20,585 nt of DNA from a virus (IMGVR_UViG_3300035698_033779:1-20585), one strand, 5' to 3'. Numbered from the stretch's first letter, positions 1 through 20,585 are shown. Numbers and translations are program-made. Notes: generated from the sequence alone by a model not told the origin.

Positions 1-1124
1 ATGATTATTTTGAATTTGTTAAAGAGTATATTTTAATGGCAAAAGATTTGTGGAATAAAATTATTGACAGAAATATTAAATCAGGAGAGCCAGGATTTTT
101 GTTTGTTGACAACATTAAAAAATATTTCAATAACCACTATTTCCAACCGTTTGCATGTACAAATCCATGTTCAGAATTGCCTCTCTCAAATGGAGGGTCT
201 TGCTGTTTAGGTTCAATAAACCTATCAAACATGTATGATGAAAATAAAAATGATGTTGATTATTCTAAATTAGCCAAAACAATAAAAGGTGGTGTTAGAT
301 TTTTGGATAATGTGTTAACAGTAAATAGCTATCCTATTTCTAAATCTCAAGAAGCAGCACATATGGGTAGGCAAATTGGATTAGGAACATTGGGATTGCA
401 CTATTTGCTAATTAAACTTGGTCTAAAATATGGGAGCAAAAAATCCTTAGAGTTTATTGAAAGGTTGTATGCAACAGTAAGAAATGAGGCATACATGGCA
501 TCAATTGATTTAGCCATAGAAAAGGGAACGTTCCCCAAGTTTAATGCTGATGAGTATCTAGAAAATAATTTTGTTAAGAATTTACCTCCGAGAATATTGA
601 AAAGAATTAAAAAATACGGCATTAGAAATGTTAGTATGCTAACATGTGCACCGTGTGGAACCATATCTATGATATCGGGAGTATCGTCAGGAATTGAACC
701 AATTTTCGCACCCGTATATAAAAGAAAATATAATATCGATAATGTATTGCATGAAGAATTGGTAATGGATTCATTGTTTGCTGATTATATTGCTAAAAAC
801 AAAAAATTAGATGTGTTTGTCGGAGCCTATGATATAACTCCAGAAGAACATCTAGCAGTACAAAGTACAATCCAACAACACATAGACAATTCAATTTCAA
901 AAACTATAAATGTTTCATCCAGTTATAACTCAAACGAGCTGGCAGATATTTTGCTAGATTATACAGACCATTTGAAAGGTGTAACAATATATCAAGCTGG
1001 GTCAAGAGGAAACGAGCCGCTGACTATAGTTGATTGGAAAGAAATGGATAAAGAAGAATTATTAAAAACAGCAAGTAAATATACTGTTAATATTGAGTGT
1101 GAAAATGGAAGCTGTGAAATCTAA
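1..1124 (+). CDS. nrdJ: Adenosylcobalamin-dependent (class II) ribonucleotide reductase, C-terminal part, 5' truncated by window
   Basis: Reduces ribonucleotides to deoxyribonucleotides for phage DNA synthesis. The reading frame is already open at base 3, so the gene begins upstream of the window; the ATG at 36 is internal. Visible family motifs are NPCSELPLSNGGSCCLGSINLS in pieces (NPCSE, then CLGSINLS), CAPCGTISMISGVSSGIEPIF in pieces (GTIS, GVSSGIEPIF), DNSISKTIN and GVTIYQAGSRG. The C-terminus ends with Cys-x4-Cys (CENGSC), as in the monomeric Lactobacillus leichmannii type of class II enzyme, where this pair reduces the active site. Trp codons are all TGG. The stop is TAA, and the last codons overlap the GTG start of a 39-codon gene. 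Class II rather than class I is inferred from the motifs and tail; the cobalamin-binding part is not in view. Confidence 0.85.
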   Translation, partial: DYFEFVKEYILMAKDLWNKIIDRNIKSGEPGFLFVDNIKKYFNNHYFQPFACTNPCSELPLSNGGSCCLGSINLSNMYDENKNDVDYSKLAKTIKGGVRFLDNVLTVNSYPISKSQEAAHMGRQIGLGTLGLHYLLIKLGLKYGSKKSLEFIERLYATVRNEAYMASIDLAIEKGTFPKFNADEYLENNFVKNLPPRILKRIKKYGIRNVSMLTCAPCGTISMISGVSSGIEPIFAPVYKRKYNIDNVLHEELVMDSLFADYIAKNKKLDVFVGAYDITPEEHLAVQSTIQQHIDNSISKTINVSSSYNSNELADILLDYTDHLKGVTIYQAGSRGNEPLTIVDWKEMDKEELLKTASKYTVNIECENGSCEI

Positions 1125-1233
1125 TAAGTGGGATGCAACTGATGCAATAATGTTAAAATGGATGGAATGGTTTAATCCAGAAGAATATATATTGCTCAAG
1201 CTTGAATTACTTGATAAGGTAGATGATGGTTAA
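1114..1233 (+). CDS. 39-aa protein with the shared C-terminal KLELL tail
   Basis: Unrecognised microprotein. It starts with GTG inside the last codons of nrdJ, giving an 11-bp overlap and so likely translational coupling. The body is short (MKSNKWDATDAIMLKW) and contains no SH3-like part. It ends YILLKLELLDKVDDG, which matches the tail shared by about 29 proteins in this window. It may be a remnant that kept only the tail. The function is unknown. Confidence 0.6.
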   Translation: MKSNKWDATDAIMLKWMEWFNPEEYILLKLELLDKVDDG

Positions 1234-1236
1234 ATC

Positions 1237-1380
1237 ATGACTATAACTAACTTCATTTTGAAACTGTATGATCTAGATGTACAAAAGACACTTGGTATAA
1301 TAACAGAAGAAGAATTTTTAAAAGGAATAGAAAAAGAGAAAAAAGTATATATTCTTGAGAAGTTGAAATTGTTAAATTAA
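1237..1380 (+). CDS. 47-aa protein ending in LEKLKLLN
   Basis: Unrecognised microprotein beginning ATG three bases after the previous stop, with no strong Shine-Dalgarno sequence. It has an acidic and lysine-rich centre (ITEEEFLKGIEKEKK) and ends ILEKLKLLN followed by TAA. A promoter follows directly, so here the tail is not serving as a ribosome binding site for a coupled gene. That argues that the tail is kept at the protein level. No N-terminal barrel is present. Confidence 0.6.
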   Translation: MTITNFILKLYDLDVQKTLGIITEEEFLKGIEKEKKVYILEKLKLLN

Positions 1381-1389
1381 AAAATAGCA

Positions 1390-1420
1390 GTTTCTTTTTT
1401 TGTGTTTTTCCTTATATTAC
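1390..1420 (+). promoter_or_regulatory. Phage promoter, class A
   Basis: GTTTCTTTTTTT at 1390 and TTATATTAC at 1412. The two boxes start 22 nt apart, as in eight other copies in the window. It lies upstream of the gene at 1461. Confidence 0.75.
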
Positions 1421-1460
1421 TAATATATATAAAAAATTTAATTTGGAGGAATTAAACACA

Positions 1461-1838: not shown

Positions 1839-1840
1839 AT

Positions 1841-2101
1841 ATGAAGTATAAATTCCATCTTGGACAAAAAGTTAGAGTTGTTAAAGTTTCACCTACGGGT
1901 TCCCCTACGGGTGATGACGATTTAAAAAAAATGTTGAACAGAATTGTAACAATTAAAAAAAACCAGGATAATGGTATGCTTTCACCATCATCAATACATT
2001 ACAACACACCTTGCTATCATATTGAAGAAATTAGTACATGGTACTGGCCAGAAATATTTTTACAATCTCTAATTTTAGAAAAATTAAAACTATTGGAATA
2101 A
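1841..2101 (+). CDS. SH3/KOW-like small protein with KLKLL tail (subfamily A)
   Basis: 86 aa. The N-terminus KYKFHLGQKVRVVKVS fits the first strand of a small SH3/KOW-like barrel (x-G-x-x-V-x-V). A tryptophan-rich segment, STWYWPEIF, precedes the tail LEKLKLLE, as in most members of this subfamily. A short repeat (TGSPTGDDD) sits in the first loop. It begins two bases after the previous stop. The function is unknown; the barrel is inferred from spacing of hydrophobic residues, not from a search. Confidence 0.75.
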   Translation: MKYKFHLGQKVRVVKVSPTGSPTGDDDLKKMLNRIVTIKKNQDNGMLSPSSIHYNTPCYHIEEISTWYWPEIFLQSLILEKLKLLE

Positions 2102-2104
2102 ATC

Positions 2105-2353
2105 ATGAAGATAGCAACAAAATTTAAATTTAGACAGCTTGTATATATTAATGGATTATCGCCGAAAAAACCAAAAGAAGATTGTGAATATTTAGGCTGC
2201 TCTGGAAAAGTTGGTTATATATTTACACATGAATTTAATGAGCGAATATATCAAGTTGATGGATTCGATCGATTCTTCTATGAATCAGAGTTGATCAGCT
2301 ATGAACAATACTGGATTAATAAAAAACTAGAACTATTAAGCAAGGAAAAATAG
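2105..2353 (+). CDS. SH3/KOW-like small protein with KLELL tail (subfamily A)
   Basis: 82 aa. It begins KIATKFKFRQLVYINGLS, contains GCSGKVGYIF and YQVDGFDRFFYESELI as probable barrel strands, and ends YWINKKLELLSKEK with TAG. It starts three bases after the preceding stop. The next promoter begins right after its stop codon, so it is the last gene of its unit. Function unknown. Confidence 0.72.
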   Translation: MKIATKFKFRQLVYINGLSPKKPKEDCEYLGCSGKVGYIFTHEFNERIYQVDGFDRFFYESELISYEQYWINKKLELLSKEK

Positions 2354-2419: not shown

Positions 2420-3787
2420 ATGATTAATGAAATAATCACAGAACTAGAAACTACAAACTCAAGAATAGATAAAATCAAAATCTTAAAGAAATACAAAGAT
2501 AATGAAATACTGAAAAAAATATTTTTCTACGCCCATAATCCTTTTTTCAATTACTACATAAAAGATTATCAATTGCCAAAGCAAGATTTGCCAGCATTAT
2601 ATGATTTCGATTTGATGTTTGAATTGTTAGATAATTTAAGAAATAGAGTAATTACTGGGAATGAAGCACGACAAGAAATTATCAACATATTGTCAGACAG
2701 TACTAATGATGTACGTTTTACTCTCCCTTTAATCTTAAATAGAAACTTAAAATGTGGCATTTCAATATCTACAATTAATAAAGTCTGGGACAATCTAATT
2801 CCAGAATTCAAAATTGCAAAAGCTAAAGGTGAAGCAGAAATCAAAAGTATTCACTATCCAGCATATTGCCAATTAAAAGGTGATGGGCGAAGAACTATCA
2901 TTATGTATTCAAAAGGTGCTGTTAAGTATTACACAAGCTCAGGAAAACAAGATTTCAAATTAAATCACCCATCAATTGATTCTGAAGTAATTCAAGCAAT
3001 TCAAACTAAAATTCCATCTTTAGACTATGATTGGGTTTTAGATTGTGAAGCAGTTATAATCAATAATGAAGATGGTACTACAATGGATAGAAAATTATCA
3101 AATGGAATCTTAAACAGAAAAGAAATTCCAGCTGATATCTATCCAAACATTGTTTTTCTAACTTGGGACAGTTTACCCAAATTATCTTTTGATTTGAAAT
3201 ATGATGCAACTCCTTACAGAGAAAGATTTAATTTCTTGCAAGGGCAATTGAAAAAAACTGCTCAAAAACATCTAAGAGTAATTGATTCTTGTACAGTTAA
3301 TTCAATTGAAAGGGGAAAAGCAAAAGCAGATGAATACATTGCAAATGGTTATGAAGGGGCAATGCTAAAGAATATGAATGCTCCATACGAAGGGAAAAGA
3401 TCAAAGAACCAAATCAAAATAAAAGCTGAAAGAGAAGCTGATTTAGTTGTAATTGGCTGGCAAGAAGGCACTGGTATTATGGAAGGAAGTATGGGAGCTC
3501 TAATTGTAGAATCAGAAGATGGCAAACTTAGAGTTAATGTTGGAACTGGTTTTACTCATGAAGAAAGAGGTTTTACCATTACAGATACTAGCACTATGGA
3601 AACAAAGCAAGTTATCACAGAATTGGCCAAATCAAATATCATTGGAAAAATCATTACTGTAAAATATAATGAAATCATCAAGAAAAAAGGAAGCACTAAA
3701 TATAGCCTATTCCTTCCCAGGTTTGTTGAAATACGTCATGATAAAAACACAGCTGACACTTTGGGGAAAATCAAAAGTGAAATATAA
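2420..3787 (+). CDS. ATP-dependent DNA ligase
   Basis: Seals nicks in double-stranded DNA through an enzyme-AMP intermediate, in phage replication and repair. At 455 aa it is close to T4-type ligases. Motif I is K153-GDGRR, with Lys153 the expected AMP acceptor. Motif III-like LDCEAV is at about 208-212, motif IV EGAMLK at 312-317 and motif V KIK at 333-335, followed by DLVVIGW, where the OB domain starts. The C-terminal LFLPRFVEIR also fits. All four Trp codons are TGG. A good SD (AGGAG) lies before the ATG at 2420. The 3' end overlaps the GTG start of a small SH3-like gene. The family call is firm; the symbol is left blank because phage names differ. Confidence 0.93.
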   Translation: MINEIITELETTNSRIDKIKILKKYKDNEILKKIFFYAHNPFFNYYIKDYQLPKQDLPALYDFDLMFELLDNLRNRVITGNEARQEIINILSDSTNDVRFTLPLILNRNLKCGISISTINKVWDNLIPEFKIAKAKGEAEIKSIHYPAYCQLKGDGRRTIIMYSKGAVKYYTSSGKQDFKLNHPSIDSEVIQAIQTKIPSLDYDWVLDCEAVIINNEDGTTMDRKLSNGILNRKEIPADIYPNIVFLTWDSLPKLSFDLKYDATPYRERFNFLQGQLKKTAQKHLRVIDSCTVNSIERGKAKADEYIANGYEGAMLKNMNAPYEGKRSKNQIKIKAEREADLVVIGWQEGTGIMEGSMGALIVESEDGKLRVNVGTGFTHEERGFTITDTSTMETKQVITELAKSNIIGKIITVKYNEIIKKKGSTKYSLFLPRFVEIRHDKNTADTLGKIKSEI

Positions 3788-3998
3788 AGTTGGATCCTAT
3801 GTTGAAATTGTAGACTTTCCATCATTGTTTGAAGATGATCAAAGGAGCAACCTTTTTAGAATTGAATCTGTATCGGATGACCCAATATTATGCATTTTTA
3901 CGCATTATCTTTTAGATGATGTATTTGGATATTTCTATGAACATGAAATCAGGCAGCCGTTGAAGTTAAAGCTAGAGTTATTAGATGAAAAAATATAA
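3777..3998 (+). CDS. SH3/KOW-like small protein with KLELL tail (subfamily A)
   Basis: 73 aa from GTG at 3777; a longer in-frame start inside the ligase gene is less likely because GGGGA lies about 10 nt before this GTG and the protein then begins MKYKVGSYVEIV like its paralogues. It ends LKLKLELLDEKI. It overlaps the ligase by 11 bp and the next gene by 14 bp. Function unknown. Confidence 0.75.
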   Translation: MKYKVGSYVEIVDFPSLFEDDQRSNLFRIESVSDDPILCIFTHYLLDDVFGYFYEHEIRQPLKLKLELLDEKI

Positions 3999-4206
3999 AG
4001 TTGGGGATCGAGTTCAAGTAGTACACAGTGTAACCTGGGGGAAGGATGGTGATGCTGGAAAATACGGTACAATTATAGCATATGATTATGCATACCTCGG
4101 ACATGATGATTGGTACAGATTAGATACAACCGGAGAATGGTGGTGGAAGAGTCAAGAGATTCATTTTTCAATAGAACAAAAATTGGAGTTATTAAGTGAA
4201 GTATAA
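3985..4206 (+). CDS. SH3/KOW-like small protein with KLELL tail (subfamily A)
   Basis: 73 aa. It begins MKKYKVGDRVQVVHSV, has a glycine-rich turn GDAGKYGTIIAYDY and an aromatic stretch GEWWWKSQEIHF, and ends IEQKLELLSEV. This is the clearest match to an SH3/KOW-like pattern (x-V-G-D-x-V, G-x-I, W-W). The codons for L-E in its tail (TTGGAG) form the Shine-Dalgarno of the next gene, which starts 11 bp before this one's stop ends. Confidence 0.77.
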   Translation: MKKYKVGDRVQVVHSVTWGKDGDAGKYGTIIAYDYAYLGHDDWYRLDTTGEWWWKSQEIHFSIEQKLELLSEV

Positions 4207-4474
4207 AGTTGATGACATCGTTAAAGTTAAGAGCGAAAAATGGTTTAAAGCCCATGCAAAAGAACATCTCTATATGTATAATGAAAAGGGTCTCAGACAG
4301 TTTTTAACTTTAATGGATAAATACTTTGGAAAAACTGGGAGAATTCTTTCAGCAAGTGGTGATCATTATATGGTAACTAGTATGTTGAAGAAGCCAAAAG
4401 TCATTGCTGGATTTGAAGATTGGATGTTTGAAGATATGAAATTAGTAAAGTTGGAACTATTAAATGAATTATAA
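4196..4474 (+). CDS. SH3/KOW-like small protein with KLELL tail (subfamily A)
   Basis: 92 aa from GTG at 4196, coupled to the previous gene. It begins MKYKVDDIVKVKSEKW, has a middle insert (KEHLYMYNEKGLRQF), then GFEDWMFEDMKLVKLELLNEL at its end. The DWMFED segment is important because the next paralogue has TGA in place of this Trp. Function unknown. Confidence 0.77.
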   Translation: MKYKVDDIVKVKSEKWFKAHAKEHLYMYNEKGLRQFLTLMDKYFGKTGRILSASGDHYMVTSMLKKPKVIAGFEDWMFEDMKLVKLELLNEL

Positions 4475-4718
4475 AATTGGAGATATAGTTAAAATCAGAT
4501 CAAGAAAATGGCATGAGGAACATTATGAAATAATTATGCAGCACCAGGCTGGATTTATTAGTCAAATGAAAGAATATTGTGGGGAAACAATAGTGATTAC
4601 CGAAGTAATAGAAGACACCCATGGCTGGACGAAATATTATTTAAAAGGCAATCATTGGAGTTGGAATGGATGAATGTTTGAAGATCTAATTTTAAAAAAA
4701 ATAAAATTATTAGGATAA
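4464..4718 (+). CDS. SH3/KOW-like small protein with an in-frame TGA read as Trp (subfamily A)
   Basis: Begins MNYKIGDIVKIRSRKW. Reading stops under the standard code at TGA 4671-4673, but the frame continues as [TGA]MFEDLILKKIKLLG and then TAA. The upstream paralogue has WMFEDMKLVKLELL at the same place, so TGA stands exactly at a conserved Trp, and the family tail (KKIKLLG) lies beyond it. I therefore annotate 84 aa to the TAA at 4716. It is the only subfamily member with an internal TGA; its other Trp codons are TGG. Confidence 0.8.
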
Positions 4719-4787: not shown

Positions 4788-4928
4788 ATGGAAGAAATTA
4801 AATATTGTATTGAATGTGGTAGAGAAAGAAAAGAAGATGAGAATTACTGTCCGGTATGTGGCACAAAATTTGAAATCTGTGATGAATCTATTCTCACTGA
4901 AGTTGATAAAGAATTACTACTTGATTAA
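4788..4928 (+). CDS. Zinc-ribbon microprotein, 46 aa
   Basis: MEEIKYCIECGRERKE then YCPVCGTKFEIC: two CxxC knuckles about 15 residues apart, the zinc-ribbon pattern found in many small bacterial and phage proteins. An acidic tail (TEVDKELLLD) follows. AAGGAA lies about 14 nt before the ATG. It stands alone between a class B-like promoter and a terminator. It probably binds zinc and a protein or nucleic acid, but the sequence gives no partner. Confidence 0.7.
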   Translation: MEEIKYCIECGRERKEDENYCPVCGTKFEICDESILTEVDKELLLD

Positions 4929-5990: not shown

Positions 5991-6212
5991 ATGAATAGAA
6001 AGTTTAAAATCGGAGACGTAGTAAAGATAATTGAGTCCTGTAGCCATGGTTTAGTTCGTGAGGTTAGATGTTATGTTGGAACATACCACAGCATTACAAA
6101 AGCAGATGATGGGTACAATTGTATAACACTATCTGGCATCCCGCGTCGTTGGACATGGTCCGGTAATAATTTAATTCTAGATGATAGATTAGAAAAATTG
6201 AAGTTGTTATAA
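5991..6212 (+). CDS. SH3/KOW-like small protein with KLKLL tail (subfamily A), probably leaderless
   Basis: 73 aa: MNRKFKIGDVVKIIES, then RWTWSGNNLILDDRLEKLKLL as the very last residues. The ATG lies five bases beyond the promoter's AT box, with no room for a Shine-Dalgarno, so translation probably starts on a leaderless mRNA. The last A of its TAA stop is the first base of the next gene's ATG. Function unknown. Confidence 0.77.
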   Translation: MNRKFKIGDVVKIIESCSHGLVREVRCYVGTYHSITKADDGYNCITLSGIPRRWTWSGNNLILDDRLEKLKLL

Positions 6213-6463
6213 TGCGATTGAAGAATAAATTCGTTGTTGGCCAAATAGTAAGAGTTTTACCTGATGGAGACTATATCAGACCTGTACAGAATTACGTTAA
6301 CAAAGAATTTAAAGTGTTAAGAGTTTTGCAGGTTTATGCATGTGCTGATAAAGAAGTGGAATATGTATTAGACAATGATAGTCCTTACCACTGGCCTGAG
6401 CATTGTTTGAGTTATAGTATCTCTGAAAAGTTAAAGTTATTGGAAGGAAAGGATGAAATATAA
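6212..6463 (+). CDS. SH3/KOW-like small protein with KLKLL tail (subfamily A)
   Basis: 83 aa. It begins MRLKNKFVVGQIVRVLPDG, has YHWPEHCLSYSI before the tail, and ends SEKLKLLEGKDEI. The start overlaps the previous stop (TAATG). GGAAGGAAAGG in its tail codons gives the next gene a strong SD. Function unknown. Confidence 0.75.
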   Translation: MRLKNKFVVGQIVRVLPDGDYIRPVQNYVNKEFKVLRVLQVYACADKEVEYVLDNDSPYHWPEHCLSYSISEKLKLLEGKDEI

Positions 6464-6727
6464 AGTTGGAGACTTAGTAGTAGTCAAAAATTTAAAGTGG
6501 TACGGTGAAATAAGTTCTTTTGGTATGCAGAAAATTAAAAGTGACAATCCAAGAATGGATAGAAGCCACTGGGATGTGAGAAGAAAGACATTTGCAGGTA
6601 AGATTTATAAAATAACATCTATTACAGGCATTACATATGTGTTCAACAGTGATTTTCATTTTCTCTGGAATGAATGGATGGTTGAATCAGCTAATGCATT
6701 TAAATTGAAATTGCTGGCAAAAAATAA
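6453..6727 (+). CDS. SH3/KOW-like small protein (subfamily A) whose frame runs on into the CCA-adding enzyme
   Basis: Begins MKYKVGDLVVVKNLKWYG and reaches the family tail, AFKLKLL, at about 6716. There is no in-frame stop. The frame continues through the promoter-like region (6728-6758) into the CCA-adding enzyme, so one 546-codon frame covers both. At the expected end lies A-AAA-AAT; a -1 slip there, or one added A in the run of six, gives an immediate TAA at 6725-6727, which is the end annotated here. It could be a true fusion, a frameshifted product or a homopolymer sequencing error. Confidence 0.65.
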
Positions 6728-6758
6728 GTTTCTTTTTCTGGAAAATCTCTTATATTAT
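6728..6758 (+). promoter_or_regulatory. Phage promoter, class A
   Basis: GTTTCTTTTT at 6728 and TTATATTAT at 6750, 22 nt apart, ahead of the CCA-adding enzyme. Its presence inside the long fused frame supports separate expression of the enzyme from ATG 6786. Confidence 0.8.
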
Positions 6759-6785
6759 ACATATATAAAGAAAAGAGGAAAAGAA

Positions 6786-8093
6786 ATGATAAAATTTAAT
6801 AAAAGACTTTCAAAAATATTCAAAGACAATAACAAAGAATTATACCTAGTTGGGGGAGCTGTAAGAGATATCATTCTTGGTATTGAACCAAATGATTTGG
6901 ATTTTGCAACAAACGCAACACCTACTGAAATGATGAAAATGAATGCAAAAACTATTCCCACTGGATTTGATCATGGTACAATTACTTTCTTGATTAATGG
7001 TGAATCATTTGAAGTTACTACTTATAGAGAAGATATTCAAACTGATGGAAGACATGCTCAAGTAAGATTTTCGAAAACAATTCTTGAAGATCTTTCTCGA
7101 AGGGATCTACAAATAAATGCAATGGCAATGACAGAATCAGGAACAATTTTTGATCCATTCAATGGTCAGGAAGATTTGAAAAATGGTATTATCAAAGCAG
7201 TTGGGGTTCCAGAATGTAGAATTACAGAAGATTATCTTAGGATGCTTAGAGCTCTTAGATTCGCTGCCAAATTCAATTTTACAATCGATGATGATCTCTT
7301 TATAGCAATTATGAAAAACTCACGTCACATCAATAAGATTTCAAATGAAAGAATTAGAATGGAAATAATGAAAGCTGCAGAATATCCTTTGTTCCATAAA
7401 TTCATAATTTCTCTAAGACAATCTGGCTTACTAGCTAACATTATTCCTGAACTGAATGATCTATATGGGTTTACTCAAAATGATTATCATGATAAAGATG
7501 CTTTCGGCCATACAATTGATGTATTGATCAGAACTGAAATGTATAGTAAATTTCCATTGACAAGAATTGCTGCTCTTTTCCATGACATTGGTAAGAAGCA
7601 AACAAGAACTAATATTGATGGTAAAGTTCAATTCATAGGTCATGAGAAAGTTGGAGCAAATACAACTGGAACTATTCTCAGAAGATTGAAATTCTCAAAA
7701 AAAGAAATTTCATTTGTAACTGGTTTGGTTAGAGAACATATGAGAACTAAAGGCTGGGGAGATAATGTTGAAGTCTCTGACAAAGCAATCAGGAAATTGA
7801 AAAGAACAGATAATCTGGAAAGTTTGTTGCACTTGATTAATGCTGATAATAAATCACATGCTGTTAATTCCTGCATGCCAAATCAAGTAGATCAAATTCG
7901 AATCAGACTAGATAAATTGTCAGATGAACCAACAGTTGTTACTATGCCAATTAATGGTAAAGATATCATGGATAAATTTGATCTGAAATCTGGTTCTGAA
8001 GTTGGAAGACTTTTGAAAATTGCTAAAGAATTTGTATTTGATGATCCAACAATCAGTAAAGAAGATTTGCTCAAGGAATTAGATGCAGTTTAA
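6786..8093 (+). CDS. cca: CCA-adding enzyme / tRNA nucleotidyltransferase with HD domain
   Basis: Adds or repairs the 3' CCA of tRNA. The ATG at 6786 was chosen because AGAGGAAAAG precedes it, a class A promoter sits upstream and the family N-terminus starts here. In the 435-aa protein, the class II nucleotidyltransferase signature LVGGAVRD is at 21-28, catalytic DLD at 37-39, RRDLQINAMA at 105-114, and LRMLRALRFAAKF at about 151-163. An HD-phosphohydrolase-like domain follows (ALFHDIGK, HD at 266-267; REHMRTKGWG later). Its context is telling: three tRNAs in the window lack encoded CCA and are followed by self-cleaving ribozymes, so their 3' ends need this enzyme. The 3' end overlaps the next small gene. 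Confidence 0.92.
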   Translation: MIKFNKRLSKIFKDNNKELYLVGGAVRDIILGIEPNDLDFATNATPTEMMKMNAKTIPTGFDHGTITFLINGESFEVTTYREDIQTDGRHAQVRFSKTILEDLSRRDLQINAMAMTESGTIFDPFNGQEDLKNGIIKAVGVPECRITEDYLRMLRALRFAAKFNFTIDDDLFIAIMKNSRHINKISNERIRMEIMKAAEYPLFHKFIISLRQSGLLANIIPELNDLYGFTQNDYHDKDAFGHTIDVLIRTEMYSKFPLTRIAALFHDIGKKQTRTNIDGKVQFIGHEKVGANTTGTILRRLKFSKKEISFVTGLVREHMRTKGWGDNVEVSDKAIRKLKRTDNLESLLHLINADNKSHAVNSCMPNQVDQIRIRLDKLSDEPTVVTMPINGKDIMDKFDLKSGSEVGRLLKIAKEFVFDDPTISKEDLLKELDAV

Positions 8094-8337
8094 AGTTGGA
8101 GACGTATTACTTTTAAAGCCATATGATGTACACATGTCAAACCCATCAGAGTGGCTGAAATTTCTTGGAACTTGGGTAACTATCAAATTGATTGATCATG
8201 GTGGTGATATAAGAATCGAAGAAGATGATGGAGATTCTTTTTGGAAGCCATGGGAGTTTGAATCTAATGAAGTTATGGTTTCAGAAAGATTAAAAATGCT
8301 AGGGAATATCAATAATGATTGAAACAACATCTGATAA
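8083..8337 (+). CDS. SH3/KOW-like small protein with KLKML tail (subfamily A)
   Basis: Begins MQFKVGDVLLLKPYDV, has DSFWKPWEFES near the end, and reaches SERLKMLGNINND. The first in-frame TGA is at 8320-8322; with UGA as Trp the frame adds WNNIW and ends at the TAA at 8335. I annotate that end to be consistent with the code used elsewhere, but a TGA stop here cannot be excluded. It starts inside the last codons of the CCA-adding enzyme gene. Confidence 0.7.
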
Positions 8338-8602
8338 AAATACAAAGGTAATTATTCTTAAGTATGAAGATTTGAATAAAGAGGGAGAACACCAGCTTAT
8401 TTTTGATCAAACGAGATTATGTCTAACTCACTTCAGAGTAATATTCAGAAAATTATATTCTGCACATTTTGTAATGTTCGTTGATGTTGATACTCAAACA
8501 TTTATTGTACTTAAAGATAGACTTATGGATGGCCATTTGTTATGTTATTACACTAACAAATTCAACAATCAAAGAAAGATGGAGTTACTAAGTGAAATAT
8601 AG
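8315..8602 (+). CDS. 95-aa protein with KMELL tail, divergent
   Basis: Begins MIETTSDKNTKVIILKYEDL and lacks the K-x-G-D start of the barrel subfamily. Beta-rich centre (HFVMFVDVDTQTFIVLKD). Ends RKMELLSEI with TAG. GGAATATC lies before its ATG, which overlaps the previous gene. A divergent member placed in the series by its tail and position. Confidence 0.7.
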   Translation: MIETTSDKNTKVIILKYEDLNKEGEHQLIFDQTRLCLTHFRVIFRKLYSAHFVMFVDVDTQTFIVLKDRLMDGHLLCYYTNKFNNQRKMELLSEI

Positions 8603-8888
8603 TATTGGTGATAGAATAACATTTAAAAATACACAAGGAATAAAGCGTGCATATTGTGGGAACAATAATCTGGGGGGAATATCATTCAAGAAGATTTTAG
8701 TTCTAGCTAACACTACACATACAATAACAAGTATTACAGAGTCTGCAGATTATGGATTCTGGGTACGACTTAACAATAATCCAAATTCATTATATCCTAC
8801 AGATGTTTTAAGTTGTTCTTTTCCCATAGACCTTTTTGTTAAATATTCTATCACACTAAAATTAAAGCTATTGAGTGAGGATGAATAA
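8592..8888 (+). CDS. SH3/KOW-like small protein with KLKLL tail (subfamily A)
   Basis: 98 aa from GTG at 8592: MKYSIGDRITFKNTQG at the N-terminus and TLKLKLLSEDE at the end. The SD (GGAG) is formed by the Met-Glu codons of the previous gene's tail, and the two genes overlap by 11 bp. Function unknown. Confidence 0.73.
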   Translation: MKYSIGDRITFKNTQGIKRAYCGNNNLGGISFKKILVLANTTHTITSITESADYGFWVRLNNNPNSLYPTDVLSCSFPIDLFVKYSITLKLKLLSEDE

Positions 8889-8891: not shown

Positions 8892-9167
8892 ATGAAATTT
8901 AGAATTGGAGAGAGGGTATTAGTAAAAACTGTTGATCAGTTAAGTAAATACAGAAAGTTTCAAATGCACAACTACAATCAAGATTATTGTAATAAAGAAG
9001 CTTTTATTGCTGATATAGTAAAGGACTATTATTACAAGCTAGATTTCACATTAGAATTGAATCCTGAATTAAAATGGTACTATGGAGTTCCCTCGTATTA
9101 TTTCGCACCATATGAAATAGTTAGTATTGATGTACAAAAGAAATTGGAGTTGTTAAGTGAAAGTTAA
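8892..9167 (+). CDS. SH3/KOW-like small protein with KLELL tail (subfamily A)
   Basis: 91 aa. It begins MKFRIGERVLVKTVDQLSKY, shares the K-x-x-x-[QM]-H-N/Q segment (FQMHNYNQDYC) with the next gene (FTMHQCCGIP), and ends VQKKLELLSES. It starts three bases after the previous stop. Function unknown. Confidence 0.73.
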   Translation: MKFRIGERVLVKTVDQLSKYRKFQMHNYNQDYCNKEAFIADIVKDYYYKLDFTLELNPELKWYYGVPSYYFAPYEIVSIDVQKKLELLSES

Positions 9168-9450
9168 GAAAGGCGATAAAATTAGATTCAAATCATTACA
9201 TGAAATGAATAAACTTCCTGAATTTACCATGCACCAATGTTGCGGCATACCAAGCAGTGCATTAAGAAAACTTGCCCTGAGAGAAGTGACAGTAAAAGCA
9301 TATTATGACGGAAGATCAAGCAGTGATATGTATTGGACAGTATTAATTGAAGAAACTAGTTTAGTATCAAATGTTGATTTCTCATACCCAAATACACTTT
9401 TCGATACATTACAATTAGATTTGAAGTTGGAGTTATTAAGTGAAAGTTAG
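9157..9450 (+). CDS. SH3/KOW-like small protein, first copy of a tandem duplication (subfamily A)
   Basis: 97 aa from GTG: MKVKKGDKIRFKSLHEMN, ending TLFDTLQLDLKLELLSES. The next gene begins MKVRKGDKIRFKSLHEIK and also has TLFDTLQLDLKLKLL, with near-identical DNA at both ends and a divergent centre, so this is a recent tandem duplicate. Start is coupled through TTGGAG in the preceding tail. Function unknown. Confidence 0.75.
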   Translation: MKVKKGDKIRFKSLHEMNKLPEFTMHQCCGIPSSALRKLALREVTVKAYYDGRSSSDMYWTVLIEETSLVSNVDFSYPNTLFDTLQLDLKLELLSES

Positions 9451-9733
9451 GAAAGGTGATAAAATTAGGTTTAAATCATTACATGAAATTAAACAATTGA
9501 GAGAATGGAAAAATGGATATTGGGGCATTGGGAATAAATGGTTTCCAATGATTGCCGGTAAAGAGGTAACAATAAAATCAATCGACCTAGAGACAGGCAC
9601 AACAAAAATAAACTATTCAATTAAGATTAAAGAATTGTTTTTGGTAGAAGGACATGGATTTTTCTGGCCTGATACTTTATTCGATACATTACAATTAGAT
9701 TTGAAATTAAAATTACTAGAAGAAGAAAAATAA
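9440..9733 (+). CDS. SH3/KOW-like small protein, second copy of a tandem duplication (subfamily A)
   Basis: 97 aa, same length as its upstream twin. Ends are conserved (MKVRKGDKIRFKSLHEIK and DTLQLDLKLKLLEEEK) while residues of about 20-75 differ strongly, including a FFWPDTLFDTL segment with the subfamily's W-P motif. The pattern of conserved edges and a fast-changing middle suggests diversifying change in the exposed part. Confidence 0.75.
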   Translation: MKVRKGDKIRFKSLHEIKQLREWKNGYWGIGNKWFPMIAGKEVTIKSIDLETGTTKINYSIKIKELFLVEGHGFFWPDTLFDTLQLDLKLKLLEEEK

Positions 9734-9735: not shown

Positions 9736-10047
9736 ATGATACCAGTTGCAGGGCAATCTCTGACTTTCAAAACAAAAAGTCAATTAAAAGAATTATTCAC
9801 CAATAGCAACTCCAGTCCAACTTACTATGGTATTAGGAAAGCACACTTGTATAGTTATGCTAGCAAATCATTCGAAATAATTCGTGTCACTCAAAAAGAT
9901 ATTCTTGATCGTGAATATGGCAGATATTCAGTTGACTTGGAAGAAAGTGGTACTAATAGCTGCCCAAACTCATGGTACACATATCCAGAGGCAGTATTTT
10001 CTAAAAATAATTTAATGTTAAAACTAAAATTAATTGGAAAAAAATAG
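9736..10047 (+). CDS. 103-aa protein with KLKLI tail
   Basis: Begins MIPVAGQSLTFKTKSQLKEL and ends LMLKLKLIGKK with TAG. It is beta-rich in the centre (RYSVDLEESG) with a WYTYPEAVF segment, equivalent to the W-P-E motif of its neighbours. Last of the run 8083-10047. No terminator was recognised directly behind it; a promoter for the next micro-gene follows. Function unknown. Confidence 0.72.
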   Translation: MIPVAGQSLTFKTKSQLKELFTNSNSSPTYYGIRKAHLYSYASKSFEIIRVTQKDILDREYGRYSVDLEESGTNSCPNSWYTYPEAVFSKNNLMLKLKLIGKK

Positions 10048-14528: not shown

Positions 14529-15194
14529 ATGTATTATATTTACAAAACAACAAACAAAATAAACAACAAAATCTATATTGGGATTCACAAATCAAATGAT
14601 ATTGAAAATGATAGATATTCGGGATCAGGAAAATTATTGAAATACTCAATCAAAAAACATGGAATTGATAAATTTGAAAGAAAAATTTTATTTGAATTTA
14701 CAGAAAAAGAAAAAGCCTATCAAAAAGAAGCTGAAATAGTTGATCAAATGTTTATTGCCAGATTAGATACTTACAATATTAAATTAGGTGGTGAAGGTGG
14801 ATGAGACTATTTAAATTCAACAGGTCTAAATAGAAAAAATCACAACACTAAAGAATTTTACAGCAAAATGAGCAATGCAGGAAATGTTGGTGGAATTAGT
14901 TTAGCTAATAAACTAAAAGAGCAACCAGCTTGAGCTGAAGAGATTAGAGAAAAGATATCTAATGCACTAAAGCTTTATTATGAAAGTCATGATGCATCAT
15001 TTTTGAACAAACATCACTCTGAAGAAACTAAAAAGAAAATGTCTTTAGCGAAAAAAGGGAAGTACCTAGGTAGAGACAACTCACAGTATGGTACTTGCTG
15101 GATTATGAATGAAGAATTAAAGCAAAGCAAAAAAATTAAAAAAGATGATCTTAATAATTGGGTTTGCAGAGGATGAATTAAAGGTAGAAAGATA
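14529..15194 (+). CDS. GIY-YIG homing endonuclease with three in-frame TGA (Trp) codons
   Basis: Paralogue of the gene at 12616 with the same architecture: GIY-YIG core in residues 1-90 (MYYIYKTTNKINNKIYIGIH; LDTYNIKLGGEGG), then NUMOD3-like repeats (SEETKKKMSLAKKGK). TGA at 14802, 14931 and 15174 stands for Trp (GGEGG-W-DYLN, QPA-W-AEEI, CRG-W-IKVER). Two further Trp codons are TGG (TC-W-IMN and NN-W-VC). It has 221 aa and ends at TAA 15192. The last residues, WIKVER, differ from the sister's WKKGRKINF, and one lost A would explain this as a small frameshift at the tail. It probably has the same activity as its paralogue. Confidence 0.88.
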
Positions 15195-15201
15195 AAGTAA
15201 T

Positions 15202-15232: not shown

Positions 15233-15262
15233 TTACTATGAATAAAAGAAGAATAAGTACCA

Positions 15263-15343
15263 GGGGATGTATTAGGAATGATTGAACACAAACCAACAAA
15301 TGGAATGTTTAATCAGAGAGTTCGATTCTCTCCATCTCCACCA
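15263..15343 (+). ncRNA. tRNA-like element 1, resembling a tmRNA acceptor domain
   Basis: Acceptor GGGGATG/CATCTCC with G3-U70 (the alanine signal), T arm GAGAG-TTCGATT-CTCTC, discriminator A and encoded CCA. Between them there is no normal D or anticodon arm. Instead, AATGATTGAACA leads into a helix, TTGAACA/TGTTTAA, with a 17-nt loop. The 5' part resembles the GATTCGAC region of tmRNA. It could be a reduced tmRNA-like domain or a decayed tRNA. Confidence 0.5.
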
Positions 15344-15354
15344 ACTTTATTTAT

Positions 15355-15421
15355 GGGGGTGAAATGATTCGACTAGGTATTGTATATTTAGGACTCGGGT
15401 TCGATCCCGACACCTCCACCA
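15355..15421 (+). ncRNA. tRNA-like element 2, minimal tmRNA-type acceptor domain
   Basis: 67 nt. Acceptor GGGGGTG/CACCTCC with G3-U70, discriminator A, CCA encoded. It carries the tmRNA-type sequence GATTCGA (15366-15372) where a D loop would be, an 8-bp helix CTAGGTAT-TGT-ATATTTAG in the place of tmRNA helix P2, then GAC and a T arm TCGGG-TTCGAT-CCCGA. No tag reading frame or pseudoknots are present. It looks like the alanine-accepting domain of tmRNA closed by a 3-nt loop. Confidence 0.6.
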
Positions 15422-15445: not shown

Positions 15446-15637
15446 ATGAATAAGTATTATGTACAGTTATATCCAGAGACTTTAATACATAATGAAAAAA
15501 TAAACCATGGATCAATATTTACTGTTGAATCAAATGATCTCAAGTTTTACTTTGATGAAAATGGTTTTATATATTTCAATCGAAATATTGAATGGATTGT
15601 ACCAGAATTAGAATATAAATTAAAAATGATTAAATAA
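15446..15637 (+). CDS. Small protein with W-I-V-P-E-x-E-Y-K-L motif (subfamily B)
   Basis: 63 aa: MNKYYVQLYPETLIHN, beta-rich centre, ending NIEWIVPELEYKLKMIK. First of ten genes with this C-terminal block, in which the KLKLL-type tail follows W-[IV]-[IV]-P-E-x-E-Y. AGAAAG lies before the ATG. It is isolated between tRNA genes. Function unknown. Confidence 0.73.
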   Translation: MNKYYVQLYPETLIHNEKINHGSIFTVESNDLKFYFDENGFIYFNRNIEWIVPELEYKLKMIK

Positions 15638-16916: not shown

Positions 16917-17267
16917 ATGGACAATAATGTAACTGCTTACTATATTAAGCTGAAGCCTTATGTAGAAATTTATACATCACATTTAAATGAAGAATCATTT
17001 ATATTAAATTCTGATCATATTGCATGGGATGGTCCTGATTCTAAAGACATTTCTTTCTATTTTGAAATGAAAATTTATTGTGATGGATTTTACAAGTTTG
17101 TTGAACAGAGTTTTACAATGAGCAGCTATAAATATGTAACGGTTCACCCAAATACTTCAGCTAATTGGTATGTTATTGATGAATGGATTGAGACTAAATA
17201 TACAGAATTAGAATATAAGTTTTTATTGTTGAATGGTAGAATATGACGAAAAGATATGCAGGACTAG
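16917..17267 (+). CDS. Subfamily B small protein, ends near a TGA
   Basis: Begins MDNNVTAYYIKLKPYVEIY and has the family block WIETKYTELEYKFLLLNGRI. The first in-frame TGA is at 17244, overlapping the ATG of the next gene (ATGA). With UGA as Trp it runs seven residues more, WRKDMQD, to TAG 17265. I give the longer end to match the genome's code, but TGA could be the stop here. Function unknown. Confidence 0.68.
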
Positions 17268-17524
17268 TCAAAGATTTGTATAAACTTACAAAAAATGAAG
17301 CAGAAGGTTTAAATCAAGATGGGAAAATGCATGTTTATTCGGGTAAAATCCTTATCATGACTAAATACCAAGGTGATTCATACGAAGATGTAAACCTCAG
17401 TGGTAGTGTACCAGATTGGCCAAATCATAAATGGACTTGGAGACCTAAGTGGTTTGAATGGATAATTCCAGAAGCAGAATATAAATTAAGATTATTAGTA
17501 GCTGAAGATGAATGTAAAAAATAA
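17243..17524 (+). CDS. Subfamily B small protein with EAEYKLRLL tail
   Basis: 93 aa: MTKRYAGLVKDLYKLTKNE, ending WFEWIIPEAEYKLRLLVAEDECKK. Its ATG overlaps the previous gene. tRNA-Phe begins just behind its TAA, so mRNA and tRNA share a transcript. Function unknown. Confidence 0.74.
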   Translation: MTKRYAGLVKDLYKLTKNEAEGLNQDGKMHVYSGKILIMTKYQGDSYEDVNLSGSVPDWPNHKWTWRPKWFEWIIPEAEYKLRLLVAEDECKK

Positions 17525-17625: not shown

Positions 17626-17895
17626 ATGATAAAAACTTTTTATGCATATGTTTCAAAAGATTCACCTCGCAGCAATTTCAACAGTGAAGGGATGATGGAT
17701 AAACATATTGGAACTGTAATTAAAGTGTTTCGGATAACCAATAATGAAGTGTCACATTCAACCTTAAACTTCAAGCCAACCTATAAACAAGAGTATATGC
17801 ATAATGGTAAAATATCTTATTGGATTTATTTAAAAGAAGATTTAGAATGGACCATAACAGAAGCTGAATATAAACTAAGATTAATAAAAGGTTAA
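17626..17895 (+). CDS. Subfamily B small protein with EAEYKLRLI tail
   Basis: 89 aa: MIKTFYAYVSKDSPRSNFN, ending LEWTITEAEYKLRLIKG. AAGGAG precedes the ATG by 7 nt. Function unknown. Confidence 0.74.
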   Translation: MIKTFYAYVSKDSPRSNFNSEGMMDKHIGTVIKVFRITNNEVSHSTLNFKPTYKQEYMHNGKISYWIYLKEDLEWTITEAEYKLRLIKG

Positions 17896-17900: not shown

Positions 17901-18170
17901 TTGAAACCAAATAAGAAAAAAATATTTTATGGATTTCTATCAAAGGAATTCATTGGAATAGTATTGGACTTGCAAAAGTCTCAGAAAGAGAAATCTGATT
18001 ATTACTCAATAATAAAAGAGAAAGGCACAATTATTCTCAAACTAAATATGCTAGGGAATGATTTCTATGATTCAGCAGTTGGAATTTGGTCTGGTGAAGG
18101 CTTTGATAAAATAATTGGTGAAACTGAATACAGATTGTATTTATTGACAGGTTCTGAAGATGAGAAATAG
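17901..18170 (+). CDS. Subfamily B small protein with ETEYRLYLL tail
   Basis: 89 aa from a TTG start five bases after the previous stop; AAAAGG lies about 12 nt upstream. Begins MKPNKKKIFYGFLSKEFIG, ends IIGETEYRLYLLTGSEDEK with TAG. The F-Y-G-[FYL] start is shared with neighbours (YYGYFSD, KYFYGKL, KIFYGLV). Function unknown. Confidence 0.72.
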   Translation: MKPNKKKIFYGFLSKEFIGIVLDLQKSQKEKSDYYSIIKEKGTIILKLNMLGNDFYDSAVGIWSGEGFDKIIGETEYRLYLLTGSEDEK

Positions 18171-18414
18171 CAATAAAAAGGGAGATATATATTACGGTTA
18201 TTTTTCTGACAAAATAGTTAGAATGGTTATCAACAAAACAGATCGGTATGGCAAGGATTATTATAATTTTATTAAGGCTGGAAATAGAGAGATTAAATTA
18301 GTTGTAGAGGAATATTACTATTCATCAGAACTTGGATTTTTCCCAGAAGAAGCTTTTAAATGGATAGTAACACAAGCTGAATATATTTTGATGAAAGGAA
18401 TGCTTGATGATTAG
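18160..18414 (+). CDS. Subfamily B small protein, divergent tail
   Basis: 84 aa: MRNSNKKGDIYYGYFSDKI, ending FKWIVTQAEYILMKGMLDD with TAG. It overlaps the previous gene by 11 bp. The tail keeps W-I-V-x-x-A-E-Y but not the KLKLL part. Function unknown. Confidence 0.72.
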   Translation: MRNSNKKGDIYYGYFSDKIVRMVINKTDRYGKDYYNFIKAGNREIKLVVEEYYYSSELGFFPEEAFKWIVTQAEYILMKGMLDD

Positions 18415-18619
18415 CATGTGGAAATATATTCAGTTTTGTAAAAAATTTCCAGAATTGACTGATCATGGTGGAAACCTAATAAGCCTTCATAAATTAGCAG
18501 AAGCATTGAAAATGTATGAAATAGTCCCGAGTGTATTCCCACAATATGAGAATTTAATTATAGAATTCAATGAAATAGATGATGGGAATATTATGAAGAA
18601 ATTAGAATTATTAGACTAG
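18407..18619 (+). CDS. 70-aa protein with KKLELLD tail
   Basis: MISMWKYIQFCKKFPELTDHG at the start, a helical middle (LHKLAEALKMYEI), and MKKLELLD at the end with TAG. ATG 18407 was chosen over TTG 18404 because GGAA lies 8 nt upstream. It lacks the subfamily B block and ends like subfamily A. tRNA-Met follows 13 nt later. Confidence 0.68.
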   Translation: MISMWKYIQFCKKFPELTDHGGNLISLHKLAEALKMYEIVPSVFPQYENLIIEFNEIDDGNIMKKLELLD

Positions 18620-18632
18620 AAAATTAACATAT

Positions 18633-18708
18633 GCCGAGGTAGCTCAACTGGTGGAGCAGTAGAATCATAATCTAAAGGTTGTGGGATCGTACCCCACTCT
18701 CGGTACCA
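18633..18708 (+). tRNA. tRNA-Met (CAU)
   Basis: Acceptor GCCGAGG/TCTCGGT, D arm GCTC/GAGC, anticodon loop ATCATAA, short variable loop, T arm GTGGG-ATCGTAC-CCCAC, CCA encoded. Class I, so the more conventional of the two CAU tRNAs here; elongator Met and Ile2 cannot be told apart by eye. Confidence 0.9.
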
Positions 18709-18715
18709 TTTTTCA

Positions 18716-18746
18716 GTTTCTTTTTTTGTTCAATTGATTATATTAT
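18716..18746 (+). promoter_or_regulatory. Phage promoter, class A, next to a start codon
   Basis: GTTTCTTTTT at 18716 and TTATATTAT at 18738, 22 nt apart. The ATG at 18755 follows 9 nt after the box, so the mRNA should be nearly leaderless. Confidence 0.8.
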
Positions 18747-18754
18747 TTATATAT

Positions 18755-19018
18755 ATGAAAGCTAAAGATAGAGTATTTTTTGCAAAAGTCGATCAACGAA
18801 GTATATATGAATATGTTGACTGGATTGGTAGTAAGCACAGTGCAATGCATAACTACATAACAAGAACAGAAATAGTTATGTTGGGGAAATCCAAATGGAA
18901 CCAAAGTATGTACATTATATGGAATGACCATTATTGGACTACAAATAAATTAAAATTTGTATGGATCATTCCTGAAGAAGAATATAAATTGAAATTGTTA
19001 GGATTGCAAAGTGAATAA
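18755..19018 (+). CDS. Subfamily B small protein, probably leaderless
   Basis: 87 aa from ATG 18755: MKAKDRVFFAKVDQRSIYEY, ending FVWIIPEEEYKLKLLGLQSE. An earlier TTG in frame lies inside the promoter and is unlikely. There is no Shine-Dalgarno between promoter and start. The tail combines the W-I-I-P-E-x-E-Y block and a perfect KLKLL. Function unknown. Confidence 0.74.
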   Translation: MKAKDRVFFAKVDQRSIYEYVDWIGSKHSAMHNYITRTEIVMLGKSKWNQSMYIIWNDHYWTTNKLKFVWIIPEEEYKLKLLGLQSE

Positions 19019-19232
19019 TAAATATTTTTACGGAAAACTTGACAATCCATCACCAAACTTATTGTCAAAAATTCCAAGTGCAATTATTAAAGTGTATAGA
19101 ATATCAGCAAAAATATATGATGAAACATGCTATAAAAGAGGAATTGGCGGAATGATTTTCGTTGAATCAAATTTTACATGGTTAGTTCCTGCAGCTGAGT
19201 ATAAATTGAAATTAATTGGAGAGCTCGCATAA
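19011..19232 (+). CDS. Subfamily B small protein with AAEYKLKLI tail
   Basis: 73 aa from GTG, overlapping the previous gene by 8 bp; TTAGGA in the preceding tail is its likely SD. Begins MNNKYFYGKLDNPSPN, ends FTWLVPAAEYKLKLIGELA. Function unknown. Confidence 0.74.
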   Translation: MNNKYFYGKLDNPSPNLLSKIPSAIIKVYRISAKIYDETCYKRGIGGMIFVESNFTWLVPAAEYKLKLIGELA

Positions 19233-19305
19233 TGGTATTGCAGCGGTTTAATTATTTTATCAAATTTTTTAAATTCTTTATATGTATATATAAGGAGAAT
19301 AAAAA

Positions 19306-19977
19306 ATGGTAAAGAATATAAGATGTAAAATATGTGGAAAAATGTTCAATAAGTATGGAATAAAGTCTCACATATTTAGAGCTCATTCTAAAGAAGGCAA
19401 AATGTTTAATAAAAAGCAAATACAATCTGTTAGTAAACCATCCTGAAATTCTGGAAAAACAATAAAAAGCTTATTAACCCCCGAGAAATATGAAAAATAC
19501 ATAGAAAAGTGTAAAAAAGGTAGAAAAAATTGTTCAGGATATGCATCAACTCCAGAAAAGGAATTAATTAGAAGACAAAAACTTAGACAAAAAATTAATG
19601 AAAGATATGCTGCTGGTTGAGAAGTTAAATGTGGTAGAGCCCCAAAATTAGATTATATTAGCCCTATTGCTGGTAAGATAAAATTAGATGGTAGTTGAGA
19701 ATTATCAACTGCTCAATATCTGGATAGAATCGGGGTACAGTGAAGAAGAAACAAAAAAAGATTTAAATATTTTAATACGATAAAAAATAGAGAATCAACA
19801 TATTGTCCAGATTTCTTTGTAAAAGATTGAAATACTTATATAGAAGTAAAAGGTTATGAAACAGATTTAGATAGATGTAAGTGAAGTCAATTTACAGAGC
19901 CTTTATTAATTTGAAAGAAAGATAAAATAAATGAAATACGGAGAGTTATTCTAACTGGTAAGGAACTCGATTGCTAA
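19306..19977 (+). CDS. PD-(D/E)XK-like homing endonuclease with seven in-frame TGA (Trp) codons and N-terminal zinc finger
   Basis: Under the standard code this 223-aa gene is broken into pieces. TGA at 19444, 19618, 19696, 19741, 19828, 19882 and 19912 all read well as Trp (KPS-W-NSG, AAG-W-EVK, DGS-W-ELS, GVQ-W-RRN, VKD-W-NTY, RCK-W-SQF, LLI-W-KKD); there is no TGG. The N-terminus CKICGKMFNKYGIKSHIFRAH is seen as CxxC...H...H, a C2H2-type finger. The C-terminal half has W-E-L-S-T-A-Q-Y-L-D, then YCPDFFV and YIEVKGY, the PD...ExK pattern of a nuclease centre. AAGGAG precedes the ATG. Its last 38 bases lie inside tRNA-Ser(GCU). A homing role is inferred from architecture, codon use and position. 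Confidence 0.85.
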
Positions 19978-20024
19978 TCGAGCGGCTTCTGGCTGTCTCG
20001 GTTCGAATCCGAGGCTCTCCGCCA
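19940..20024 (+). tRNA. tRNA-Ser (GCU)
   Basis: Acceptor GGAGAGT/GCTCTCC, anticodon arm CTCGA-TTGCTAA-TCGAG, long variable arm, T arm CTCGG/CCGAG, discriminator G, CCA encoded. Its 5' half also encodes the C-terminus of the endonuclease. Confidence 0.94.
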
Positions 20025-20055
20025 CCCTCCCTCGTACAAATATGGAGAATGTATA

Positions 20056-20355
20056 ATGAGTTCAGAAAAATATGTTTATGTAAAAATCAAGCCATATTAT
20101 AAGTGCACCTTCTATGAAAACAAAGAAATACCAAAGGAAAAATATTGTTTATATAATGTAATAACTCGTGCATTCAGAATAAATATGGAACAGTATGAAG
20201 TAAGTATTCCAAAAAAATATCGAACAAAAAGAGTTGTTAATCACACTACTTATAAAAGAGCAAGATATGAACTTTGGTCTAGGAATAATTTTGAATGGAT
20301 TAAAACAGAAGCAGAATATAAAATGGAATTGGTTGGAAAAAGTGGTAGAAACTAA
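20056..20355 (+). CDS. Subfamily B small protein with EAEYKMELV tail
   Basis: 99 aa: MSSEKYVYVKIKPYYKCTF, ending FEWIKTEAEYKMELVGKSGRN. GGAG lies 9 nt before the ATG. The tail is a looser version of KLKLL. It overlaps the next gene by 14 bp. Function unknown. Confidence 0.73.
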   Translation: MSSEKYVYVKIKPYYKCTFYENKEIPKEKYCLYNVITRAFRINMEQYEVSIPKKYRTKRVVNHTTYKRARYELWSRNNFEWIKTEAEYKMELVGKSGRN

Positions 20356-20585
20356 AATATTTTATGGGTTAGTTAAATCTAAAACTTTTTTAATTGAAGA
20401 AAAGCATCTTTGCCGCGGCCCAGGAATTGCATCGGAAATGCTAGCTAACGCTGGTAAAGTAATTGAATTATCTTCCAATGGGGGATATCATAAACAAGAT
20501 ACATCTGGTAACGTACGAGGATATTGGAACTGGCCTGGAATATGTTTTATTTGGGTATTGCCAAGATCAGAATATTTAGAAATGA
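20342..20585 (+). CDS. Subfamily B small protein, 3' end cut by window
   Basis: Starts GTG inside the last codons of the previous gene, with GGAAAAA about 5 nt upstream. Begins MVETKIFYGLVKSKTFLIE and reaches FIWVLPRSEYLEM, the family block, at the window edge. The tail itself lies beyond the window. Function unknown. Confidence 0.7.
   Translation, partial: MVETKIFYGLVKSKTFLIEEKHLCRGPGIASEMLANAGKVIELSSNGGYHKQDTSGNVRGYWNWPGICFIWVLPRSEYLEM

Follow-up and report, generated by a model that had tools for sequence, protein, structure and literature searches.

A short K-L-x-L-L end shared by clustered small phage proteins as a candidate private docking peptide

The window analysed here, a whole virus record of 20,585 bases (IMGVR_UViG_3300035698_033779), derives from a large, AT-rich phage. 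Besides 25 tRNA genes, it encodes the end of a ribonucleotide reductase (RNR), a CCA-adding enzyme, a DNA ligase, a sigma-like factor and three homing endonucleases. Interspersed among these genes are small ones whose products share a K-L-x-L-L-type C-terminal end (Table 1), and this array runs on past the window end, where its last gene is cut. PADLOC gave no match in the window, Pfam and PHROG gave no convincing match for its small proteins, a tblastn search of 50,697 phage records revealed no direct relatives of these proteins, and no close relative of the window was found among GenBank phages. The exact K-L-x-L-L tail patterns had zero matches elsewhere in 2.9 million viral contigs; among the data searched, the tail is carried by this one phage fragment only. 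The nearest cellular RNRs found were mostly those of Patescibacteria, with an identity of 38-42% that is too weak to name a host.

Table 1 Tail-bearing genes of the window. Given are position, strand, head type, form of the tail and remarks; A and B denote the two head families described in the text.
Position	Strand	Head	Tail	Remarks
1114..1233	+	39 aa, B-like end only (FNPEEYILLKLELL)	KLELL	GTG start overlaps RNR stop
1237..1380	+	47-aa helical protein	KLKLL	no gene close behind
1841..2101	+	A (SH3-like barrel)	KLKLL
2105..2353	+	A	KLELL	uncoupled
3780..3998	+	A	KLELL	overlaps ligase end; start codon not fixed
3985..4206	+	A	KLELL	coupled to next gene, SD GGAG within tail codons
4196..4474	+	A	KLELL
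4464..4718	+	A	KIKLL	needs TGA=Trp (codon at 4671); uncoupled
4788..4928	+	Zn-ribbon protein	degenerate, DKELLLD	doubtful member
5991..6212	+	A	KLKLL at very C-terminus	stop overlaps next ATG (TAATG)
6212..6463	+	A	KLKLL	folded with AlphaFold2
6453..8093	+	A barrel fused in frame to CCA-adding enzyme	KLKLL	Met at 6786
8083..8322	+	A	RLKML
8315..8602	+	diverged	KMELL
8592..8888	+	A	KLKLL
8892..9167	+	A	KLELL
9157..9450	+	A	KLELL
9440..9733	+	A	KLKLL
9736..10047	+	A	KLKLI	uncoupled
15446..15637	+	B	KLKMI	uncoupled
16917..17246	+	B	KFLLL
17243..17524	+	B	KLRLL	tRNA next; uncoupled
17626..17895	+	B	KLRLI
17901..18170	+	B	RLYLL
18160..18414	+	B	degenerate, EYILMKGML
18404..18619	+	non-barrel	KLELL	tRNA next; uncoupled
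18755..19018	+	B	KLKLL	folded with AlphaFold2
19011..19232	+	B	KLKLI	uncoupled
20056..20355	+	B	KMELV
20342..20585	+	B (FIWVLPRSEYLEM)		cut by contig end; start codon read from sequence

Of 40 curated genes, 26 encode the motif [KR]-[LIMF]-x-[LIM]-[LIV] among the final 14 residues, while shuffled proteins contained on average 0.64 and at most 4 such relaxed tails (2000 trials). For the strict form KL[KE]LL, 15 cases were observed compared to 0.01 from shuffling. Throughout the entire proteome the relaxed motif occurs 29 times, 26 times in tails and three times elsewhere, one of the latter being the fused copy in the gene at 6453. An unbiased tail-versus-tail comparison of 56 ORFs gathered 22 in a single cluster and gave 81 similar tail pairs, where about 14 were expected. 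The first-pass annotation had reported about 29 genes with a common KLKLL-type tail. This number is right, since the 26 tails are complemented by the fused copy (6453-8093), two degenerate copies (18160 and 4788) and the B gene cut off at the contig end (~20342-20585). The distance from the motif to the C-terminus is 0-8 residues across the members; just one member terminates exactly at the motif, and in nearly all of them 1-8 mostly charged residues follow. The tail is absent from the RNR, the ligase, the sigma factor, the end of the CCA enzyme and the three homing endonucleases, as well as from the products of genes 1461, 13323, 14130 and 16713. A selfish in-frame repeat was considered as the source of the motif and set aside, because the motif is almost exclusively C-terminal.

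On the DNA level, all 26 copies are distinct 15-mers; the eight copies of KLKLL have eight DNA sequences, and likewise the eight of KLELL. Codon differences within the motif comprise 650 synonymous and 477 non-synonymous changes; the corresponding numbers for a block located 15-20 residues upstream are 37 and 1537. The 26 different 15-mers, together with the excess of synonymous changes, indicate that the motif is selected as amino acids. Its codons have a further use in some genes. The motif ends 1-2 nt ahead of the next start codon in seven genes. KLELL is encoded with GAG five times, each time in such a coupled gene, where GGAG or GAG is thereby placed as ribosome-binding site. In at least seven genes, motif codons carry or adjoin the ribosome-binding site of the downstream gene. 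The tail is also kept in eight genes in which no start codon lies less than 75 nt from the motif (1237, 2105, 4464, 9736, 15446, 17243, 18404 and 19011). The earlier suggestion that it persists in uncoupled genes holds for these eight, among them the gene ending at 1380, and has to be corrected for 5991-6212, which is coupled via TAATG. Hence it is very improbable that the tail codons are maintained only as a Shine-Dalgarno or coupling sequence for the next gene: the seven abutting motifs and the position of the GAG codons favour this explanation, but at least eight members have no nearby start and the DNA versions all differ, mostly by synonymous changes. As sole cause a DNA-level constraint is refuted, while the dual use in coupled genes stands.

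Fifteen heads align as one diverged family (alignment A2), which we term family A. Its profile matches an MIB1 repeat (PDB 4tse; E=6e-5, profile positions 2-71 of 85) over a span that covers the barrel and stops short of the tail. The AlphaFold2 model of the protein encoded at 6212 (mean pLDDT 84.6) shows strands at residues 12-15, 32-43, 46-53 and 66-68, followed by a helix at residues 70-81 that bears the tail and has a confidence of about 70, compared to 83-95 for the barrel. A Foldseek search with this model returned SH3-like barrels on top (best E 0.02, probability ~1), and such barrels, many of them from phages, dominate both the PDB and the viral fold lists. Profile and model thus point to small SH3-like barrels of the MIB type, a class that includes L21e, the nitrile hydratase beta subunit, Tudor and PetP. 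In contrast to MIB repeats, the A proteins of the window consist of a single predicted barrel with an added C-terminal helix that holds K-L-x-L-L. Conservation within the family peaks at the four tail columns (93% per column versus a head mean of 36%). The spacing between barrel and tail is 7-9 residues in 11 of the 15 proteins and 11-18 in the other four. In the protein at 4464 the tail is reached only if TGA is read as Trp, and the same column holds a TGG-encoded Trp in the proteins at 4196 and 6453.

Family B comprises nine aligned genes and 9-11 in all, with a W-[IV]-x-[PT]-E-x-E-Y-type segment immediately before the tail. The model of its member at 18755 has an overall pLDDT of 68. Since the C-terminal strand and helix are its best predicted part (pLDDT 86), the tail may belong to the B fold. 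Foldseek gave weak SH3/MIB fold hits and no confident PDB match for this model. A W-P-E-type motif precedes the tail in A and B alike, and the two profiles match weakly over the tail end (E=0.00085, with a probability of just 24%). Three to five tail carriers are outside both families, and the tail is found on at least three kinds of head, including non-barrel proteins and proteins of 39-47 aa. The heads of 1237 and 18404 fit neither A nor B, and the 39-aa product of 1114 has little beyond its B-like end. A SHOCT domain was considered for 1237 and not supported, Pfam giving no match for 1237 or 1114 up to E 0.5. The description of the centres as unrelated in the first-pass annotation applies clearly to 1237 and 18404, but most heads are diverged paralogues of A (15) or B (9-11), and 1114 keeps only a B-like end.

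In the search for related phages, queries with the sigma factor, the CCA enzyme and a first RNR yielded nothing new, and alignments A1 and A2 were too diverse to serve for locus finding; an alignment of an RNR pair led to relatives. One of them, the 60.7-kb contig IMGVR_UViG_3300035698_016860 (G001), was found via its RNR, which is 70% identical to that of the window. It has orthologues of genes 1461, 14130 and 16713 (assigned by eye) and of the CCA enzyme (aligned). Profiles of A and B gave no convincing match in three relatives, G001 included, and three giant phages, in searches run without a positive control. Eight small genes of G001 (23055, 24520, 24822, 25253, 25646, 32646, 35190 and 49523) end in approximately R-Y-I-I-I-V-E and occupy the same RNR-to-tRNA stretch as the tail genes of the window. 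Seven of these carriers were compared by blastp and have mutually unrelated heads, and the codons of the tail vary among the copies.

The closest relatives of one homing endonuclease of the window are encoded by uncultured phages of 462-735 kb. In the 735-kb genome LR756501 (W03), the motif DPYGEExW is present in about 107 copies in 92 ORFs, 40 of them C-terminal, 20 near the N-terminus and the rest internal. Among 105 copies, 48 DNA forms were counted, and the 42 genes with a C-terminal copy that were compared fall into 41 head families. By eye, the N-terminus of some tagged proteins of this phage resembles the T4 capsid-targeting sequence, which is not the case for the window proteins. The DPYGEExW pattern was also found in many viral-contig stretches, often several times per contig. 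LR756500 (W01) carries NADDFGFFDN on 13 genes of five head families. A shared end in LR756508 (W02) was rejected as a tag because it represents one paralogous family. The K-L-x-L-L carriers of the window belong for the most part to two families, alongside some other heads; for the tails of G001 and LR756501, occurrence on non-homologous proteins is clear. In a survey of 70 contigs, mostly RNR-matched phage fragments, tails with more than two partners were found in the window only and in none of the 69 others. The DPYGEE motif was found in no phage paper in our literature search, the sections that we consulted of a paper describing a 735-kb genome (PMC7162821) contain no mention of a DPYGEExW-like motif, and a limited search for shared C-terminal phage motifs gave nothing relevant.

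A 1233-aa protein of LR756501 has the order barrel-DPYGEEDW-deaminase-like-DPYGEEDW-barrel-DPYGEERW-barrel-DPYGEEDW-barrel-CCA-adding enzyme, in which all domains except the CCA enzyme were named by eye. In the window, the barrel at 6453-8093 has no stop after KLKLL and continues in frame into the CCA-adding enzyme. A barrel, a tag and a CCA enzyme thus occur together in two distant phages with different peptides, which argues that barrel and tag form a unit and that the fusion in the window may be real. Some caution is needed with the fusion, since a run of six A nucleotides follows KLKLL in this gene and one additional A would let the protein end in KLKLLAKK.

We propose that the K-L-x-L-L end serves this phage as a short, private docking peptide, a reading to which we assign a probability of about 0.5. 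The tail, which probably forms an amphipathic helix, would be retained by a growing set of small proteins while their heads change. Each head, whether SH3-like barrel, B fold or other, would bind a different host or phage target, and the common helix would bring all members to a single partner or location. Part of the sharing is due to descent, as most carriers are paralogues of two families. The regular spacing of 7-9 residues is what a structural element would show. The main rival is a capping or dimerisation helix, in which case the tail would descend from the C-terminal helix of a single ancestral small barrel, with A and B as its branches. We consider this possible, although the weaker of the two readings. 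The near-constant spacing after the barrel, the helix predicted in both models, the shared W-P-E-type motif, the faint A-B profile match and the weak SH3/MIB hits of B are all in line with it. However, conservation is concentrated in the tail and not in barrel positions available for packing, the tail also occurs on three proteins that lack a barrel (1237, 18404 and the 39-aa 1114), the homologous MIB1 barrel ends ahead of it, and the private tails of G001 and LR756501 sit on unrelated heads. The first-pass annotation had named a tail that is merely the last helix of one fixed domain, with no conservation of its own, as the finding that would speak against a separate signal. The tail is conserved separately, being selected as amino acids and having analogues on unrelated heads elsewhere, and this weakens that case, which retains some likelihood in view of the spacing in 11 of 15 proteins and the predicted helix.

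Timed removal offers another explanation, in which the tail would flag early proteins for proteolysis by an enzyme of the host or the phage, or the proteins themselves would act as adaptors that bring targets to a protease. In G001, genes for HslV (27982-28515) and HslU (28544-29914, ending in DEDLSKYIL) lie beside the R-Y-I-I-I-V-E genes, and phage SPO1 has an adaptor-like protein, Gp53, that acts on a host AAA+ protease (PMC6873191). However, ssrA-type degrons are read at the very end of a protein, whereas the motif ends 0-8 residues from it and, in nearly all members, is followed by mostly charged residues; furthermore, the window contains no protease gene, and the G001 tail was likened to the HslU terminus by eye only. 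We therefore regard a degradation signal as improbable. HslV-docking mimicry in G001 is kept as an idea only. Even less probable is a capsid cargo signal by which proteins would be packaged for injection. Encapsulin cargo-loading peptides and the T4 capsid-targeting sequence are short terminal peptides that give unrelated proteins a common address, and one short tag on diverse small proteins follows the logic of such signals. Contrary to this, the window tail has no link to a capsid or virion: its carriers have the RNR, ligase, sigma, CCA and tRNA genes as neighbours and are not near virion genes, of which the window has none, and they use TGG for Trp, as do the early-type small genes of G001, whereas the virion-type genes of G001 make heavy use of TGA. 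Degron, capsid cargo and pure DNA constraint are thus all less likely than a docking peptide or a structural helix.

The array resembles the SPO1 host takeover module, which comprises 26 small genes, one of them coding for an adaptor-like protein for ClpCP (PMC6873191). Both are clusters of early-type small proteins in a lytic phage, but the window genes are mostly paralogues and are placed among nucleic-acid and tRNA genes. We know of no common C-terminal tag on the proteins of the SPO1 module. More similar is DPYGEExW of LR756501, which is likewise private to its genome, mostly C-terminal or interdomain, conserved on the amino-acid level and found with barrels fused to a CCA-adding enzyme. 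It differs in being acidic-aromatic, in its many linker and N-terminal copies and in its nearly always unrelated heads. It may be speculated that large phages provide their accessory proteins with an address peptide private to each genome (KLxLL, RYIIIVE, DPYGEExW or NADDFGFF), which would change between lineages together with a putative phage-encoded receptor, hub or compartment and would deliver unrelated heads to one place.

Small genes of unassigned function make up the majority of the genes in large phages. Where dozens of them in one genome share a private tag, all become accessible together: the tag could replace homology as the basis for sorting genes, and the common partner could be identified in a single pull-down with the peptide. 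The recurrence of different peptides in four phages, for which our limited literature search found no precedent, suggests an organising principle for phage proteomes.

Four genes in the window, three for homing endonucleases and one encoding the SH3-like barrel head, are open only when TGA is read as tryptophan, and their TGA codons fall at Trp positions (for example GGHGG[W]). For tryptophan, the window's genes for ribonucleotide reductase (RNR), ligase, sigma factor and CCA-adding enzyme use TGG. In G001 (IMGVR_UViG_3300035698_016860), a close relative, the virion-type and RNR genes use TGA heavily for tryptophan and the small early-type genes mostly TGG. The only tRNA-Trp found in either genome was tRNA-Trp(CCA). 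In the RNR genes of G001 and two further relatives, L025 and L026, the NPC motif is followed by an intein-like insertion; the window RNR has none.

Coordinates of the features
Feature	Source	Positions	Remark
Homing endonucleases needing TGA = Trp	window	12616-13296, 14529-15200, 19306-19977	two GIY-YIG, one T4-like
Barrel gene needing TGA = Trp	window	4464-4718	
RNR with intein-like insertion	G001	19050-22128	endonuclease frame inside
RNR with intein-like insertion	L025	9239-11524	
RNR with intein-like insertion	L026	3116-4657	
tmRNA-like piece	window	15240-15421	
Promoter-like element copies	window	1391, 2357, 5957, 6729, 14073, 16643, 18717	
DPYGEExW example locus	LR756501	154863-158564	

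Within the tmRNA-like piece, an Rfam tmRNA match (55.7 bits; window 15355-15421, 67 nt) includes the two ends of the tRNA-like domain and lacks a tag frame; the acceptor stem contains G3:U70. A second 3' end lies just upstream and could make a permuted tmRNA.

The element TTTCTTTTT-N13-TATATTA, which appears promoter-like, occurs in seven exact copies of fixed length in the window (0.01 expected). One copy falls within the fused frame 6453-8093, in which the barrel is joined in frame to the CCA-adding enzyme across this putative promoter (6720-6790). The six-A run after KLKLL at this junction may mark a site of slippage or stem from a mistake in the assembly.

G001 encodes its own HslV/HslU protease pair (27982-29914, corresponding to L105 8982-10911; named by eye from the sequence), which adjoins its tail-bearing genes; its HslU ends in DEDLSKYIL. 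Over the whole genome of the 735-kb giant phage LR756501, the proteome contains about 107 copies of the peptide DPYGEExW. Some stand at C-termini, some within linkers, and others behind N-terminal leaders (MIKxFxxFE), which by eye resemble the T4 capsid-targeting sequence.
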